From the NCBI GenBank assembly GCA_036489885.1, contig DASXEW010000003.1:2046001-2110000 (forward strand): a stretch of DNA of 64,000 nt. The letters are read 5' to 3'. A model generated the notes under the pieces. That model made no database searches and was not told the DNA's origin. It saw only the letters and a program-made list of their open reading frames with translations. Every line of letters begins with the position of its first letter. Within the stretch, counting starts at the first letter, position 1. Of this stretch, positions 4,351 through 15,127 are shown piece by piece. The position numbers and the translations under genes are program-made. Origin of the DNA: Candidatus Baltobacteraceae bacterium (GTDB taxonomy: Bacteria; Vulcanimicrobiota; Vulcanimicrobiia; Vulcanimicrobiales; Vulcanimicrobiaceae).

Positions 4351-4426
4351 AGGGCGGTGGCGCAATTGGTAGCGTAGCGGTCTCCAAAACCGTCGGTTGC
4401 AGGTTCGAGTCCTGTCCGCCCTGCCA
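4351..4426 (+). tRNA. tRNA-Trp (anticodon CCA)
   Basis: Acceptor AGGGCGG/CCGCCCT, anticodon loop CTCCAAA (anticodon CCA) and T loop TTCGAGT. Discriminator G is followed by an encoded CCA (4424-4426). It lies 9 bp after rpmG and is probably cotranscribed with it. Confidence 0.95.
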
Positions 4427-4432
4427 TTAACG

Positions 4433-4464
4433 AAGACTCCAAACTTGGGTTTGGAGTCTTTACT
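4433..4464 (+). terminator. intrinsic terminator after tRNA-Trp
   Basis: A perfect 12-bp stem, AAGACTCCAAAC (4433-4444) with GTTTGGAGTCTT (4449-4460), has a TTGG loop and a following TTTACTTT tract. It separates the rpmG-tRNA-Trp transcript from the convergent ATPase gene and from secE. Confidence 0.85.
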
Positions 4465-4471
4465 TTGTGGC

Positions 4472-4876
4472 CTAGCTGCAGCTACGATCTTGCACGCGCG
4501 GGGAGAGCTCATCGAGACGCCGCTCGAGGCGAATGAGCCGTCCGCGCTTGAGGAACGTAATGCGACCTACCAGCATGCGCATGACCGTAATGCCAAAACC
4601 TCGCACGCTGCGCGGGTCACTCATATTTTGCGGCTCGAAACCCGGGCCGTCGTCCTCGACTTCAATGCGCAAAATACCCTCTTGGACTGCTGCACGAATC
4701 TCGAAGTACGAACCCTCGCGGAAGCCATGCTCGACAGCGTTGGCGATTGCTTCACCGGCGGCTTGTTCGAGGTCGACGAGATCGCTTTCAGCGACACCGA
4801 GGCTGGTGAGATACGCGACGACTGCTCGCCGGGCTTTGGTCGCGTACCGAGGAGTCGACGGAAAAATAACGCGCAA
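4472..4876 (-). CDS. RsbW/SpoIIAB-like ATP-binding protein (anti-sigma type kinase)
   Basis: 134 residues, a single HATPase_c_2 (GHKL) domain. Visible motifs are the N box EAIANAVEHG, the G1 box EDDGPGF and the G2 region RGFGITVMRMLV. There is no transmembrane segment and no histidine-kinase dimerisation domain. Proteins of this type bind a sigma factor or phosphorylate an antagonist STAS protein and are countered by PP2C/SpoIIE phosphatases; such a phosphatase is encoded at 49405-50841. No sigma factor or STAS gene lies next to it, so the partner is unknown. It reads convergently against tRNA-Trp. Confidence 0.85.
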   Translation of the reverse strand: MRVIFPSTPRYATKARRAVVAYLTSLGVAESDLVDLEQAAGEAIANAVEHGFREGSYFEIRAAVQEGILRIEVEDDGPGFEPQNMSDPRSVRGFGITVMRMLVGRITFLKRGRLIRLERRLDELSPRVQDRSCS

Positions 4877-5020
4877 TTTGCGCCGGCGTGTAGCGATCTC
4901 CGGACATCCTCCCAGGGGTTCTTTCCCAGACCAGGCCCTGGGCTAAACCAAGTAAGCCAAGCGGCTCAGCCGTATCCGTAGGGGGGATTTCAGGGTAGTA
5001 TGAGGAACGCGGGGCTCTTG

Positions 5021-5047
5021 AAAACCCCCGTTGTGTGGGTTTTTTAT
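5021..5047 (+). terminator. hairpin plus T-run directly ahead of secE (terminator or attenuator)
   Basis: AAAACCC (5021-5027) pairs with GGGTTTT (5037-5043) and is followed by more T residues. The structure ends 2-6 bases before the secE ATG. It looks like a short intrinsic terminator in the 5' leader, and no separate ribosome binding site is visible between it and the start codon. Confidence 0.45.
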
Positions 5048-5048
5048 T

Positions 5049-5306
5049 ATGGCTGAACGTACGATGAATCGGCCCCCGGGCCGTACGACCGCAAACACGC
5101 CGCGTGCAGAACGCATGGCGCGTAGTCGTGAATATATGCAAGGGCTCATTTCGGAGATGCGCCGGGTCACGTGGCCCACGCGTCAGGAATGGGTGAGCGC
5201 GACGGCGTTGACCGTAACGCTCGTCATCGTCGTCGGATTGTTTACGTCCGGTTGCGATTGGCTTTTCACCCAGCTCTTCGCGCTACTGCACGGAGGGTCG
5301 ACCTAA
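5049..5306 (+). CDS. secE: preprotein translocase subunit SecE
   Basis: 85 residues from ATG 5049. An upstream TTG at 5031 is in frame but lies inside the hairpin. SecE clamps the SecY channel in the inner membrane. The C-terminal half shows the family pattern: the amphipathic LISEMRRVTWPTRQEW stretch, then one transmembrane helix (about residues 50-72, ALTVTLVIVVGLFTSG). The N-terminus is basic and Pro/Arg-rich. It lies 4 bp before nusG, the near-universal neighbour, so the two are cotranscribed. Confidence 0.95.
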   Translation: MAERTMNRPPGRTTANTPRAERMARSREYMQGLISEMRRVTWPTRQEWVSATALTVTLVIVVGLFTSGCDWLFTQLFALLHGGST

Positions 5307-5310
5307 GGTT

Positions 5311-6042
5311 ATGCACGACACCCACGAAGAAACAGAGCTCGCCCCTCCGCAGAACGGCGAAACGACTCCGGAAACGGCGATCGCGGATGCAATTGTCGAG
5401 ACCGTGACGACCGAAGAAATGTCGAATGCGGAAGTCGTCGAGGCTGCGCAAGACGTCGATGAGGCAGAAGAGGAAGCACCTCGTCCGGCTGCGTCCTCGC
5501 AAAAGAGCGAGCGCAAAAAGTGGTACGTGATTCACACGTACTCGGGTTACGAGAACAAGGTCAAGGCCAATCTCGAGCGCCGCATTCACTCGATGAACAT
5601 GCAAGACAAGATCTTTCGCGTGCTCGTCCCGATGGAAGACGAAGTCGAGTTCAAAGACGGCAAGCGCAAGATCACGCCCAAGAAAGTGTTCCCGGGTTAT
5701 GTCTTGGTCGAGATGGACATGGACGATTCGTCCTGGTACGTCGTGCGTAACACCTCGGGCGTGACGGGATTCGTCGGCTCGCCGGGCTCCGGTGAGAAAC
5801 CGGTCCCGCTGCAAGATAAAGAAGTCAAGACGATTCTCAAGCAGATGGGCATCGAGACGCCCAAGCTCAAGATCGACTTCGCAAAGGGCGACCGCGTCAA
5901 GGTCACGTCCGGACCGTTCTTCGATTTCACTGGAATCGTGGACGAGATCCAACCCGAAAAAGAGAAAGTGCGTGCGCTTATCTCGATCTTCGGACGCGAA
6001 ACGCCCGTCGAGCTCGAGTTCTATCAGATCGAAAAGGTCTAA
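5311..6042 (+). CDS. nusG: transcription termination/antitermination protein NusG
   Basis: 243 residues, longer than the usual 175-190 because of an acidic, low-complexity N-terminal extension of about 65 residues. The NGN domain begins at KKWYVIHTYSGYENKVKANL and includes the conserved KKVFPGYVLVEM and VRNTSGVTGFVG. The KOW domain follows (FAKGDRVKVTSGPFFDFTG). NusG binds RNA polymerase across the cleft and couples it to Rho or to the ribosome. The acidic extension is unlike E. coli NusG; similar extensions occur in some other phyla. Codon bias does not change between extension and core, so I keep it as part of the protein. Confidence 0.95.
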   Translation: MHDTHEETELAPPQNGETTPETAIADAIVETVTTEEMSNAEVVEAAQDVDEAEEEAPRPAASSQKSERKKWYVIHTYSGYENKVKANLERRIHSMNMQDKIFRVLVPMEDEVEFKDGKRKITPKKVFPGYVLVEMDMDDSSWYVVRNTSGVTGFVGSPGSGEKPVPLQDKEVKTILKQMGIETPKLKIDFAKGDRVKVTSGPFFDFTGIVDEIQPEKEKVRALISIFGRETPVELEFYQIEKV

Positions 6043-10282: not shown

Positions 10283-12266
10283 GTGACCGCGAGCCTTCGG
10301 GCCGGCCTCGTCGGGGGAGCGCTGGCCACGATCCTCACCGTCACGTTCGCGTTGTCGTACGCCGTGCTGATCTTCAACGGCGATTTAGCGGCAGGGCTTA
10401 GCTTCGGTATTACGTCGTCACTGATTGCAGCAGCCGTCGTGTCGGTTGCCCTCGCCTTATTCGGGACGATGCGCTTTCAAATCGGAACGCCGACCGGCAA
10501 TACCGTAGCGGTCGTCGCGGTCGGGGCGGCTGCAATCTCGCGCACGCTGGCAGGCCCGGAGCATCATTCGGCGATTCCGACGGTCTTGGTTGCGATTGCA
10601 ATCTCGACGATCGCGGTGGGCATCGTCGTATTTGCGCTCGGCGTAATGCGGGCCGGACGATGGATGCGCTTCATCCCCTACCCCGTCATCGGCGTCGTCC
10701 TCGGCGCAGCCGGCTGGTTGTTTCTCACCGGCTCGTTCCGCGTCATGGGTTCCAATGAACGCGCAGAGCTGATCGTCGGATTGGTGTTCTCGTCGATCGT
10801 GATCGTCGCGACGATGCGCGTGAAGCATGCGCTCTTGTTGCCGGGATTACTGCTCGGCGGCGTCGCCGCGTTCTACGTCGTGGTCGTCACACGTGGGTTA
10901 TCTCTTGACGACTTGCGCAATGCCGGCTGGTTTCTGCACGTGCCGGGGTCGAACTCGGCTCGAATGAGGAAGCCGACCTCGATCACGAGATGCGCGTGCA
11001 GGGCATTGCCAATGTCGCAAGTGGCTTGCTGGGCGGGCTCGTCGGTCTCGGAGCCCTGACGAACACGCTCGTGAGTTACCGCGTTGCCGGGACAAGCCGC
11101 GTCCCGCCCATTTGCGTTGCCGTGGCTTCGATCGGAATTTTATTCGGCGGCTCGGTGATCGTCGAGGCGATTCCTTCATCTTCGGCGCCTTGATCTTCAC
11201 GACAGGCTTTAATTTGCTCTACGAGTGGTGCGTGCGTTCGGCACGGCGTTTGCCGTTGCCGGACTATCTCAGCATCCTTGCAATCGTCGCCGTCGTCGTT
11301 CGATTCGGCTACGTGGCCGGCGTTCTGACCGGGATTCTGATCGGATGCATCATCTTCGTCGTGAGCTATAGCCGCGTCCGCGTGGTCAAGCACGACCTTT
11401 CCGCCGACGTCTTCCGGAGCAGCGTCTTGCGCTCACTCGAAGAACGCGACGCGTTGCAAGCCCACGGGAAAGCCATTCGCATCCTGGTTTTACAAGGATT
11501 CATCTTTTTCGGGATGGCCGACCGGCTGTACCGTACGATCAAGGAGCTTTTGGAAGAACCCGGCCAGCATCCGGATTTTCTTATTCTCGATTTTCACGGA
11601 GTACACGGTCTGGATTCGTCGGCAGCGACCAGCTTCTCGAAGATTCAGCAACTTGCGACGCGCGATCAGTCAAAGCTCATCATCAGCGCGATTGCGCCGG
11701 ATCTCGAGAAACAGTGGAGGTTCGGCGGCGACGGTCAACACGGCGTGCTCGAATTTCGCGATCTGGACGCGGCACTCGAGTATTGCGAAGGCGAGCTGCT
11801 TCGAAAGCGTGTCGAACACTTGAACGCGGATACGAGCTTGGAGCAGTGGTTGGGGATCGAGCTGGGGGAGATTCGTCTGGCGCACCGCTTGGGAGGCTTT
11901 CTCGAGAAGCGCGAGCTGTCCGAAGGCGACATATTGTGTGAAGAGGGTACACCGGCGCAGGAGATGTTCTTCATCGAACAGGGTCGCGTCGGCGTCATTT
12001 TCGGTTCCGGCGAAGAGAGTGTCAGGCTACGCAGTCTGGGCGAACGGACGATCCTCGGCGAGATGGGCTTGTATCGCTCGCGCGTGCGCAGCGCGTCGGT
12101 GATTGCGGAACAATCATCGACGGTCTACGTGCTGAGCCGCGAGGCTTTTAACCGGATGGAGAAGACGGACCCGGTGCTCGCGGCGGCGTTCAACGCTGCG
12201 ATCGTTCGAACGCTCGCCGATCGCCTCGAATTCGAGAGCGCGATGGTTGCGTCGCTTCAGCGCTGA
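10283..12266 (+). pseudogene. SulP transporter-STAS-cyclic-nucleotide-binding protein, broken by two frame changes and a deletion
   Basis: Three consecutive plus-strand frames together spell one protein. Frame 1 (10283-about 10945, GTG start) has the SulP N-terminal transmembrane helices up to AGWFLHVPG. Frame 2 (about 10945-11175) continues with GVELGSNEEADLDHEMRVQG and two more helices. Frame 3 (about 11172-12266) has the last helices, a STAS domain (LILDFHGVHGLDSSAATSF) and a Crp-type cNMP domain (GEMGLYRSRVRSASV). Comparison with the family suggests that about 45-50 residues, roughly one helix, are missing at the first junction, while the second is a simple one-base loss. SulP proteins carry anions such as sulfate or bicarbonate. 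It could be a true pseudogene or an assembly error. Confidence 0.75.
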
Positions 12267-12790
12267 GCTCCGAGATACGCGTTGATCGCTCGTTCCCAAT
12301 CGGGGGCAGCGCGGTCATCCTGCTGCGCCATTTCTTGCACGATCGATGATGCATCGGGGCTGAGCGCGGTACGCTCGTAGCGCACCCTTACGATCGTATG
12401 CGCTTCGCGCGGCGACAGCGTCAGCGTGAGCAGCGTTGCCATGACGTCCGGCACGACGTACACATATTGAAAGCGTCCGTGCTCGGGATCGTATTGGGTG
12501 TTGATCCAGACCGAGGTTTTGTGTCCATGGGCGACGGTGAAGACCATGCCTTCCCGATCCGCAGGTGAGTCTGGCCACGCGAAGACCGGATTCCAGCCGG
12601 GTGACCAATCACGTTCGCGCTCAGCGCCGAACAGCGGCGCTACGCGCGCCATCGGCACGAAGGCGATGAATTCAAACGTGCGATCCGTGTGCGCGAGGAC
12701 GGTGTTTGATTGTGCGCTCGACGGACGAGCGGCGATGAGGATGCCGACAAGCACGCCGAGTCCGAGGCCGACGATGAGTCGCATGTTCAT
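12257..12790 (-). CDS. exported SRPBCC/START-like protein
   Basis: 177 residues. An N-terminal hydrophobic segment (LIVGLGLGVLVGILIAARPSSAQ) looks like a cleavable signal peptide. The rest resembles the SRPBCC (Bet v1/START-like) ligand-binding fold, with the block RDWSPGWNPVFAWPD, a VFTVAHGHKTSVWI strand, and TIVRVRYERTALS. Such domains bind hydrophobic ligands, but export is unusual for them. It overlaps the preceding small gene by 4 bp (ATGA), so the two form an operon, and its tail overlaps the broken SulP gene by 10 bp. Confidence 0.65.
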   Translation of the reverse strand: MNMRLIVGLGLGVLVGILIAARPSSAQSNTVLAHTDRTFEFIAFVPMARVAPLFGAERERDWSPGWNPVFAWPDSPADREGMVFTVAHGHKTSVWINTQYDPEHGRFQYVYVVPDVMATLLTLTLSPREAHTIVRVRYERTALSPDASSIVQEMAQQDDRAAPDWERAINAYLGAQR

Positions 12791-13047
12791 TTCTCCCGCA
12801 ATGCGTGACTGTCGTTCGAACGCAATGTAAGACCGTACAGCGCTTTGAGCGCAACGATTTGTTTGATCGTCTCTTTCGAGAAAGGTGCTTTGCCCTCGAA
12901 GGCATGGAGCACGATGCCTTCCAGCAGCTCGCCGACGCCCATGTCCTTGAGCTCTGCGAGACCTTTGAGCACCTTGAGCAGACGCTTTTCCATTCGCAGT
13001 CCGGTCTGCACGCGCTCGATCTCAACCGTATTTCGTTCTGGTACCAT
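12787..13047 (-). CDS. small ribbon-helix-helix-like protein, probable autoregulator
   Basis: 86 residues. The segment RVQTGLRMEKRLLKVLKGLAELKD, then MGVGELLEGIVLHAFEG, fits a beta strand followed by two helices, the pattern of MetJ/Arc/CopG-type DNA-binding proteins. A second basic helix follows (APFSKETIKQIVALKALYG). The start codon lies inside three tandem GTACC repeats spaced exactly 8 bp apart, as expected if the protein represses itself. It is the first gene of a two-gene operon with the exported SRPBCC protein. The fold call is inference from pattern only. Confidence 0.6.
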   Translation of the reverse strand: MVPERNTVEIERVQTGLRMEKRLLKVLKGLAELKDMGVGELLEGIVLHAFEGKAPFSKETIKQIVALKALYGLTLRSNDSHALREK

Positions 13048-13062
13048 AGTACCGAAGTACCA
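13039..13062 (-). promoter_or_regulatory. tandem 8-bp repeat operator
   Basis: GTACC occurs at 13041, 13049 and 13057, giving an exact 8-bp period. The outer ends also form an inverted repeat, TGGTAC (13039-13044) with GTACCA (13057-13062). The repeats cover the start codon of the ribbon-helix-helix-like gene. Confidence 0.6.
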
Positions 13063-13132
13063 ATATGACCCCTGAAGTCCCTTCTACGCATGGAAGGCAT
13101 CCGTGCCGCTCTGAGAAACACCGGACGGCAAC

Positions 13133-15127
13133 ATGCTGACACCATCGGATTTTCTCGGGCTCATCGGTGTGGAGGACCCGCAGATATCACCGGACGGGCG
13201 AAACATCGTCTACGTCAGGAGCCGTCACAATCTGGACGAGAACCGCACGGAGCGCTCGTTGTGGCGGCTGCGAAAGTCGGGAGCACAGTCGTTCACGCAA
13301 GGTATCGCCGACCGCTCTCCGCGCTGGTCGACGGACGGGACGAAGATCGCATTCCTGCGGACGAACGATGAGAAAGAAACGCACCTCTGCGTGATGCACG
13401 CCGACGGCGGCGAAGCCCACGCAGTCGCAGGACCTTTTAAGCGCATCGGTACAGCCGCGTGGTCTCCGGATTGTTCGCGTTTGGCGTTCGCGGCGGCGAT
13501 CGAGATGGAGCCGGCGCAAACATCGGTTGCGTTCGACGAGGTGAGCGGCGCGCGGCACATCGTCGCATTGCCCTACAAGCACGATTCAATTGGGCTTTTC
13601 GACGGCAAACGCATGCAGATTCACGTCGCAACACTTGACGGAGATGTAGAGGTCGTTGCACGCGGAGCATTCGATGCCGGAACGCCGGCATGGTCTCCGG
13701 ACGGTAAGCGTATTGCTTTTGTCGCGAACCTCGGGAACGGCGAACGCATCTACGCCAACGATCTGTACGATGTCCCGGCCGCCGGTGGCGAAGTTCGGCG
13801 GCTGACGTCGATGAACGGCATCTTCGATTCGCCGTCATTTTCGCGCGACGGCGACGAGCTCGCATTCGTCGGCTACGAAGACGACAAGATCATATCGGGA
13901 GCGCGCAATCGTCAATTGTGGTGCGTCCCGGCAAACGGTGGAAGGCCGCGCTCTCTGACGCCGGACCGTAAGGAGTATTTAGGCGACGCGATTATCAGCG
14001 ACATGCGTGCGCACGAGAACGACACACCGGTCTGGAGCCCGGACGATCAAGAGATCATCATTCAACGCTCACTCGAAGGCCGCTGCGATATCGTAGCCTA
14101 CAAACGCGATGGCAGCTCGAGCCGCGAGCTCGCCGGCGGCGAGATGGAGATCTACGCGTTTTCCGGAGCCCGCAACGGTGCAATCGCGTTTGCGTCGACC
14201 GATATCGCAGACCCGGGCAGCATCGTGCTCATCGAACCGGGCGAAACGTCGGCGATGCGATTTCCGAGCGAAAATGCAGCTTGGCTCGAAGCGCATCCGC
14301 CGCTCGTTCCGGAACGAATTCGCCCGATAGCCGACGACGGAACCGAGCTCGATGCGTGGTTTATTCGCGCGGCGAAAGATGGGCCGGCGCCGCTGGTGCA
14401 CGCGGTGCACGGCGGTCCGCACGGCGCCTACGGATTGTCGTACTTCTTCGAGTTTCAGCTCTTGGCGCAACTCGGCATGCACGTCGTGTACGGTAACCCG
14501 CGCGGCAGCCAGTCGTACGGCGAAGCTTACGCCGATGCGATTACCGGACACTGGGGCGACCTCGACGCAGCCGACGTGCTCGCGATCTTGCACGCGGCCA
14601 AACAGCGCCTTCCAATCGAGGGTAACAAGATCGGATTACAGGGCGGCTCGTACGGCGGCTTCATGACGACCTGGCTGATGGGACACTGCAAAGAGTACGT
14701 CTGCGGTGTTTCGATGCGCGCCGTCAACGAATACGTAACGGAGGGCACGGTAAACGACATTCCGGGCTTCCTCGAGTACGAGCTCAGCCTGGATTGGAGC
14801 GACGGTGGGCGCAAGCTGTTCGAGGCCTCACCGATGCGCGCCGTCGAGAACATCGACGCGCCGTTACTCGTCATGCACTCCGAGCGCGATCTGCGCTGCC
14901 CCATCGATCAAGGTGAACAGCTGTTCGGCAGGCTGCGCGCACTTGGCAAGACTGCGGAATTCGTGCGCTTCGCAAACGATGGCCACGACCTCTCGCGCAA
15001 CGGGACGCCGCGTAACAGACTCCTGCGCTATCGTGCGCTCTGTCATTGGATGCGGCGATATCTCGGGCTCGAGCAAGCCCACGGCGGAGCGGGCTGGTTG
15101 TTTGCACCAATTGCTGACGAGTCGTGA
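13133..15127 (+). CDS. S9 family (prolyl oligopeptidase/acylaminoacyl) peptidase
   Basis: 664 residues, no signal peptide, so cytoplasmic. The N-terminal half is a TolB/WD-like beta-propeller with repeated motifs (PQISPDGRNIVYV, SPRWSTDGTKIAFL, PAWSPDGKRIAFV, PVWSPDDQEIII). The C-terminal alpha/beta hydrolase has the nucleophile serine in QGGSYGGFM (about residue 505), Asp in MHSERDLRCP (about 586) and His in NDGHDLSRNG (about 617), a complete triad. HGGPHGAYG forms the oxyanion region. S9C enzymes cleave short or N-acylated peptides. Confidence 0.92.
   Translation: MLTPSDFLGLIGVEDPQISPDGRNIVYVRSRHNLDENRTERSLWRLRKSGAQSFTQGIADRSPRWSTDGTKIAFLRTNDEKETHLCVMHADGGEAHAVAGPFKRIGTAAWSPDCSRLAFAAAIEMEPAQTSVAFDEVSGARHIVALPYKHDSIGLFDGKRMQIHVATLDGDVEVVARGAFDAGTPAWSPDGKRIAFVANLGNGERIYANDLYDVPAAGGEVRRLTSMNGIFDSPSFSRDGDELAFVGYEDDKIISGARNRQLWCVPANGGRPRSLTPDRKEYLGDAIISDMRAHENDTPVWSPDDQEIIIQRSLEGRCDIVAYKRDGSSSRELAGGEMEIYAFSGARNGAIAFASTDIADPGSIVLIEPGETSAMRFPSENAAWLEAHPPLVPERIRPIADDGTELDAWFIRAAKDGPAPLVHAVHGGPHGAYGLSYFFEFQLLAQLGMHVVYGNPRGSQSYGEAYADAITGHWGDLDAADVLAILHAAKQRLPIEGNKIGLQGGSYGGFMTTWLMGHCKEYVCGVSMRAVNEYVTEGTVNDIPGFLEYELSLDWSDGGRKLFEASPMRAVENIDAPLLVMHSERDLRCPIDQGEQLFGRLRALGKTAEFVRFANDGHDLSRNGTPRNRLLRYRALCHWMRRYLGLEQAHGGAGWLFAPIADES

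Follow-up and report, generated by a model that had tools for sequence, protein, structure and literature searches.

The question this locus raises is whether a short run of repeats at the start of a small gene is the operator of the very protein that the gene encodes. The window, a 64,000-nucleotide stretch of a genome assigned to Candidatus Baltobacteraceae, holds two minus-strand reading frames that overlap by 4 nt: a gene for an 86-aa protein of ribbon-helix-helix (RHH) type (12787..13047, minus strand, ATG at 13045-13047), followed by one for a 177-aa SRPBCC (Polyketide_cyc2-like) protein (12257..12790, minus strand), which was assigned by a profile match below cut-off and by its relatives adjoining the RHH gene elsewhere. 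The original prediction placed three GTACC elements at 8-bp steps across the start codon of the 86-residue protein, and this is exact, as on the plus strand they occupy 13041-13045, 13049-13053 and 13057-13061. Read on the RHH gene's strand they make up a candidate tandem operator of three 8-bp boxes, each with a GTAC (13038..13061, minus strand), in the order GGTACTTC GGTACTAT GGTACCAG, with the third box inside the first codons of the RHH coding sequence. A -10-equivalent hexamer, TACTTC (13054..13059, minus strand; TACATT in the clearest relatives), ends 6 nt before the ATG, and the best -35, GGGACT, lies 16 bp further upstream. Since TACTTC is a poor -10 and the -35 matches at 3 of 6 positions, the promoter in the window is a weak representative of its kind. 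The further arrays that the original prediction proposed to look for in the genome were searched for, and the 3.48 Mb contain a single exact copy of the triple GGTAC array; allowing up to two mismatches adds two places, against three matches for a reversed control pattern. A single triplet in one genome, taken alone, is only suggestive. It goes beyond chance because relatives carry the same 8-bp arrays, and the RHH reading frame is real since 80 relatives align to it at 57-75% identity. The array region (window 13048-13132) is also common to a divergent gene at 13133 (plus strand), S9-type peptidase-like by eye, which might also be affected by the putative repressor.

A scan of 84,980 species genomes gave 249 confirmed relatives of the RHH protein, and the best 80 of these were analysed (42 from Acidobacteriota, 23 from Pseudomonadota, 7 from Actinomycetota, 5 from Thermodesulfobacteriota and 3 from Myxococcota). 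Two loci with less than 100 bp upstream (L044, L073) were left out, so the upstream set comprises 78 loci and the window (n = 79). When exact GTAC pairs were counted at distances from 4 to 24 bp, 62 fell at 8 bp, 26 at 16 bp, 4 at 24 bp, one at 9 bp and none elsewhere. An exact GTAC-n4-GTAC was present in 42 of the 79 upstreams, compared with a mean of 0.14 and a maximum of 1 in 200 shuffles. We then scored arrays by giving 2 to each exact box and 1 to each box with one mismatch, requiring at least two boxes; a score of at least 4 was reached in 60/79 upstreams (shuffle mean 0.35, maximum 2), and rerunning the score at periods 5 to 15 other than 8 gave 0 or 1. By phylum these arrays are found in 38/42 Acidobacteriota, 14/22 Pseudomonadota, 3/6 Actinomycetota, 3/3 Myxococcota and 1/5 Thermodesulfobacteriota. 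They sit at varied offsets from the start codon, in seven phases, and always in 8-bp steps. The repeats are therefore conserved in relatives, one of the two points on which the original prediction had staked itself (the other being an RHH fold), and since the array is kept at its 8-bp step before most examined relatives in several phyla, the RHH protein very probably uses it as a switch for its own gene and for the partner gene. It could be argued that chance repeats were simply kept through close sequence relationship, given that 42 of the 80 loci are from Acidobacteriota and many are closely related. We find this hardly credible, as arrays scoring at least 4 occur in five named phyla and in the window genome, the offsets vary while the 8-bp step is constant, the proteins are no closer than 57-75% to that of the window, and control upstreams from the same contigs are nearly empty.

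Those controls were the upstreams of other mechanical ORFs (at least 150 codons) at the same loci, and 2 of 865 reached the array score. In both cases (L035, L067) the promoter is that of an MFS gene in an operon that ends with the RHH gene; because these arrays precede the MFS gene, the array belongs to the promoter of the RHH-carrying operon and not to the RHH reading frame. Of the 79 upstreams, 19 fall below a score of 4. A looser rule that has no null (at least two boxes, none with more than one mismatch) finds an array in 71/79 and none in eight (L021, L051, L055, L035, L045, L067, L070 and L063). In L021 the stretch is partly N-masked, in L055 the array is weak, and in L051 the start codon is misassigned and an array is visible there. 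L035 and L067 are the two operons just described, L045 has a weaker array at its MFS promoter when read from the sequence (ATAC-GTAC, with a degenerate third box), and the L070 contig starts inside an MFS-type gene. No array scoring at least 4 was found anywhere in the L063 locus. Two loci carry an additional array: in L080 (4340-4352) a second one (GGTACCATGGTACC) lies just downstream of the RHH gene, and in L011 (6039-6051) a further GTAC pair lies some 2 kb downstream, where the first codons of the RHH gene are repeated after it, an arrangement that looks like a duplication remnant.

The position of the array within the promoter was then considered. Among the 71 array loci, 16 have a TTGACA-like -35 (at least 5/6) separated by 17 bp from the TAC of a box and 14 have one at 25 bp (17+8), with other spacings from 10 to 24 bp accounting for 0-3 loci each. 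Where such a -35 stands at a spacing of 16-18 bp, the -10 is TACATT in 11 of 18 loci. Relaxing the -35 to at least 4/6, a loose rule that takes the best of three spacings over several boxes and has no null, the first base of the -10 is 12 or 13 nt upstream of the ATG in 23 of 45 loci, which leaves 6-7 nt between hexamer and ATG, as would suit a leaderless message. In many loci the array ends at the start codon, and the -10 hexamer lies within the array. Because the array holds the -10 and often ends at the start codon, the RHH message would probably be leaderless, so far as the loose rule can be relied on. A Shine-Dalgarno-like stretch precedes the start in 15/79 upstreams; the array is farther upstream in 9 of these, adjoins the ATG in L066, and is absent at the RHH gene in the other 5.

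Searching 20 RHH-carrying genomes for GTAC-n4-GTAC-n4-GTAC with at most one mismatch returned 55 forward matches versus 103 for the reversed control, and the operon's own site was among the matches in 17 of the 20. No genome-wide regulon was seen in these genomes at three-box stringency, which two-box sites would escape, and a triple pattern that does not rise above its control fits a single-operon autoregulator. The same search bears on whether the array might be the operator of another regulator, or some other DNA or RNA element, with the RHH gene merely travelling along. The 20 genomes show no enrichment of the triple pattern at other sites, and the array stands at the operon promoter even where the RHH gene is not first. 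The partners differ while the RHH gene is common to the array loci (by construction, as the loci were fetched with it), and invariant residues in the RHH strand accompany the shared GTAC core, as set out next. We consider this explanation very unlikely.

The AlphaFold2 model of the window RHH protein, built on an 81-row alignment, has a mean pLDDT of 90.5, with block means of 92-98 over residues 41-80, and contains strands at 8-10, 12-14 and 18-20 and helices at 21-33, 38-50, 58-71 and 77-82. From residue 15/16 to 51-53 it overlays the RHH domains of PutA and Arc at 1.8-2.5 Å over 37-39 residues, with a Z of only 3.2-3.8, the domain being small and unrelated chains tying at similar Z. The top candidate of the structural aligner was PutA with its operator (2rbf; Z 3.8, 1.8 Å over 38 residues), followed by Arc, AtaR, KacA and ParD, with acyl carrier protein and designed enzymes tied with these RHH candidates at similar Z. 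A Foldseek search against the PDB gave no significant match (best E 2.0). At the sequence level, Pfam RHH_4 (PF13467) matches the window protein below its cut-off (E 0.0099, 16.3 bits versus 25 bits) and 65/81 family members at E ≤ 0.01 (best 9.2e-6); the sole PDB sequence match at E ≤ 1 is 3kk4 (E 0.67), the uncharacterised RHH_4 protein BP1543 of Bordetella pertussis. The sole PHROGs match is an Arc-like repressor (E 0.081), and neither Pfam nor NCBIfam yielded a model specific to this family. Given the Foldseek result and the tied Z values, the fold call rests jointly on element order, profile and overlay, and on these the 86-residue protein models as ribbon-helix-helix, in agreement with the strand-helix-helix pattern first read from its sequence. 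R12, Q14, G16, R18, E20, H48 and H81 are invariant in 81/81 RHH proteins; the recognition strand covers about residues 12-19, and the helical C-terminal part (58-82) carries H81. In RHH proteins every second strand residue points towards the DNA, a pattern that R12, Q14, G16 and R18 fit, and these invariant strand residues accompany a GTAC core that is shared among the arrays.

The locus had been proposed to encode a MetJ-type autoregulator; MetJ itself is the methionine repressor, with S-adenosylmethionine as its corepressor. As with MetJ, whose dimers bind side by side and cooperatively, an RHH protein is paired with an operator of tandem 8-bp boxes, here found by array score. Unlike MetJ, whose boxes are centred on ACGT, the boxes here are centred on GTAC, no regulon beyond the own operon was seen in the genomes searched, and no methionine gene was recognised among the partner families. 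No MetJ profile was matched in Pfam (E ≤ 1 for the window protein, E ≤ 0.01 for the 81 members) or in NCBIfam (E ≤ 1 for the window protein). The array boxes do not fit the MetJ box consensus, which one source gives as AGACGTCT (PMC4239095). What stands of the proposal is the tandem 8-bp architecture, which is conserved; membership of the MetJ family does not stand, repression is a matter of prediction, and MetJ identity was set aside on the missing profile match and the different box.

Other RHH systems were compared in the same way. The Arc, PutA and CopG-type repressors share the strand-helix-helix arrangement (the overlay was computed for Arc and PutA), and none of them is known to act on an operator of 8-bp GTAC arrays. 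We know of no operator for the RHH_4 (PF13467) proteins, whose profile matches the family here with the window protein itself below the Pfam cut-off, and a literature search for PF13467 found no account. F55, from a Sulfolobus spindle-shaped virus, is described as an RHH protein that binds ATAGATAG-type repeats in tandem, both at its own promoter and at others, with the repeats overlapping the start site (PMC5569661). It differs from the family here in being viral, in its archaeal promoter, in having several targets and in its repeat. Our literature search, which covered titles and the beginnings of abstracts and left subscription papers mostly outside, found no description of this RHH family.

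The original prediction had the RHH gene controlling only an exported SRPBCC protein, an unusual pairing. That describes the window, where the SRPBCC N-terminus is signal-peptide-like by eye, but the relatives also use SRPBCC proteins without the extension, HxxH proteins and MFS proteins. Across the 80 loci, to which the window adds another SRPBCC, the partner is SRPBCC in 35 (located by tblastn with the window's protein), HxxH in 27, MFS in 4 and another or none in 14. The exact 4-nt overlap with the RHH gene recurs in 32/35 SRPBCC loci and 12/27 HxxH loci. The SRPBCC profile match in the window (E 6.4e-4, 20.5 bits) is below the 27.4-bit cut-off; 10 of 34 members match Polyketide_cyc2 in Pfam (best 7e-9) and 2 match AHSA1, and a PDB sequence search returned no SRPBCC-type match. 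By eye, the signal-peptide-like N-terminus is common to most acidobacterial SRPBCC proteins and absent from the actinobacterial rows and from the one myxococcal row. SRPBCC relatives (28-34% identity) are also present in three relatives of the window's genome (G014, G019, G059). Around these genes the stretches examined show no array in L088, L089 and L090 and one weak pair in L087; with no comparable array and no RHH match in the genomes, we rejected them as the same cassette.

HxxH proteins, such as those at L036:4254-4649, L052:4270-4665, L082:4242-4625 and 24 other loci, are all-helical, have about 130 residues and carry the motif HxxH ... YHxTxT, with H22, H25, G57, T65 and T67 invariant in 25 rows (the short L033 and the fragment L071 were dropped). 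Their genes lie on the RHH strand in 25 loci and divergently in two (L033, L080), and never together with SRPBCC in the stretches examined at the 80 loci. No Pfam family was matched above cut-off, the weak matches being MPAB_Lcp_cat (E 0.007, one of 25 members) and DUF4864 (E 0.021, one member), and three members scanned against NCBIfam gave no match. The HxxH model has a pLDDT of 93.2, and against the PDB nothing was significant with Foldseek or convincing with the structural aligner (Z 3.6 at most). In three Thermodesulfobacteriota loci (L035, L045, L067) an MFS-type gene precedes the RHH gene, overlapping or abutting it; the assignment comes from NCBIfam profiles below their cut-offs in L035 and L067 (best TIGR00900, E 4e-59 and 3e-63) and from similarity in L045 and L070. 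A DUF2961-type gene lies 86-228 nt downstream in L025 (by profile), L037 and L042 (by similarity), and a DUF2961-type relative follows the SRPBCC gene in L019, L021 and L026. None of the four types is found in L010, L034, L038, L050, L054, L055, L057, L063, L068, L075 and L076, and in L054 another reading frame starts 13 nt downstream of the RHH gene. The SRPBCC/HxxH label changes at least four times on the best protein tree, which has few columns and many weak forks.

A small RHH protein that usually comes first, a 4-nt overlap, an autoregulatory-looking operator, a patchy distribution and changing partners are typical of toxin-antitoxin modules, so the RHH protein could be an autoregulating antitoxin and its overlapping partner a toxin. 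We judge this unlikely. The partners include an MFS efflux-type protein and SRPBCC proteins with ends that are signal-peptide-like by eye, to our knowledge unlike known toxins, and the C-terminal part of the RHH protein is predicted to be ordered (pLDDT 92-98) and is conserved to H81, unlike a disordered toxin-binding tail. Furthermore, no toxin profile was matched by the partners scanned, that is 34 SRPBCC and 25 HxxH members in Pfam and a few in NCBIfam, both of which are general and not toxin-dedicated libraries. PADLOC was silent on the cassette, which says little because it is not a toxin-antitoxin library. A toxin-antitoxin identity was set aside on the partner types, the ordered C-terminal part and the lack of a toxin profile.

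Taken together, we favour an autoregulated two-gene cassette in which an RHH autorepressor acts on a GTAC-array operator at its own promoter, alongside a partner gene, and would give this a probability of roughly 0.87. The two-stranded ribbon of an RHH dimer (R12, Q14, R18) would enter the major groove at each 8-bp box with its GTAC centre, and adjacent dimers may bind side by side on the tandem boxes in the fashion of MetJ. Because the boxes contain the -10 and the message start, and often the start codon itself, an occupied array would exclude RNA polymerase, and promoter occlusion would shut down the RHH gene and its co-translated partner. The array could be freed by a signal, probably a small molecule to which the conserved C-terminal part responds, or just by a drop in the repressor level. 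The partners being SRPBCC proteins, the HxxH protein and an MFS efflux-type pump suggests that they may handle a hydrophobic or toxic small molecule.

The distribution of the RHH gene is patchy around the window's own genome. A single-sequence search found it in that genome alone among 98, and a profile search added one distant genome among 198 (G180, E 1.7e-13), where no array scoring at least 4 was present within the 3.2 kb examined. The window copy sits on a long branch with Acidobacteriota as its nearest rows in the tree, and horizontal acquisition of the RHH gene with its partner and operator would be the likeliest account. Phage records gave no match to the RHH protein, and a phage origin of the cassette was set aside on that result. 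Plasmid records gave one match, in an 11.85-Mb record of Nonomuraea gerenzanensis that is listed as a plasmid and is unannotated at that place.

We take these loci to represent a new RHH family, made up of autorepressors that each act on a single operon and whose partners can be swapped. For a conserved RHH family the analysis thereby puts forward a function, an operator sequence and the residues likely to recognise it, and it links two partner families, both poorly characterised, to one putative switch. It also adds a further case of the MetJ-like 8-bp tandem architecture with a different box, which bears on how RHH proteins choose spacing and sequence. As the GTAC array is easily recognised and the protein has just 86 residues, binding and the signal are directly testable. 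A wider view is offered only tentatively: the family may be a class of RHH autorepressors, widespread but so far undescribed, that sense small molecules and form a portable cassette with interchangeable effectors (SRPBCC, HxxH, MFS efflux, perhaps others) in which operator, -10 and leaderless start are fused in one repeat. The ArsR, TetR and PadR cassettes are the helix-turn-helix counterparts of a portable cassette of this sort. In L035, one of the Thermodesulfobacteriota loci, the operon of MFS and RHH genes runs towards an SO_0444-type Cu/Zn efflux gene (4360-5439, minus strand), seen as two frames that each match part of the profile, with an ArsR-like frame behind it by eye. Similar minus-strand frames were noted by eye in L067 (2732-3808), and it is possible that the operon of MFS and RHH genes is tied to metal or toxic-compound resistance.
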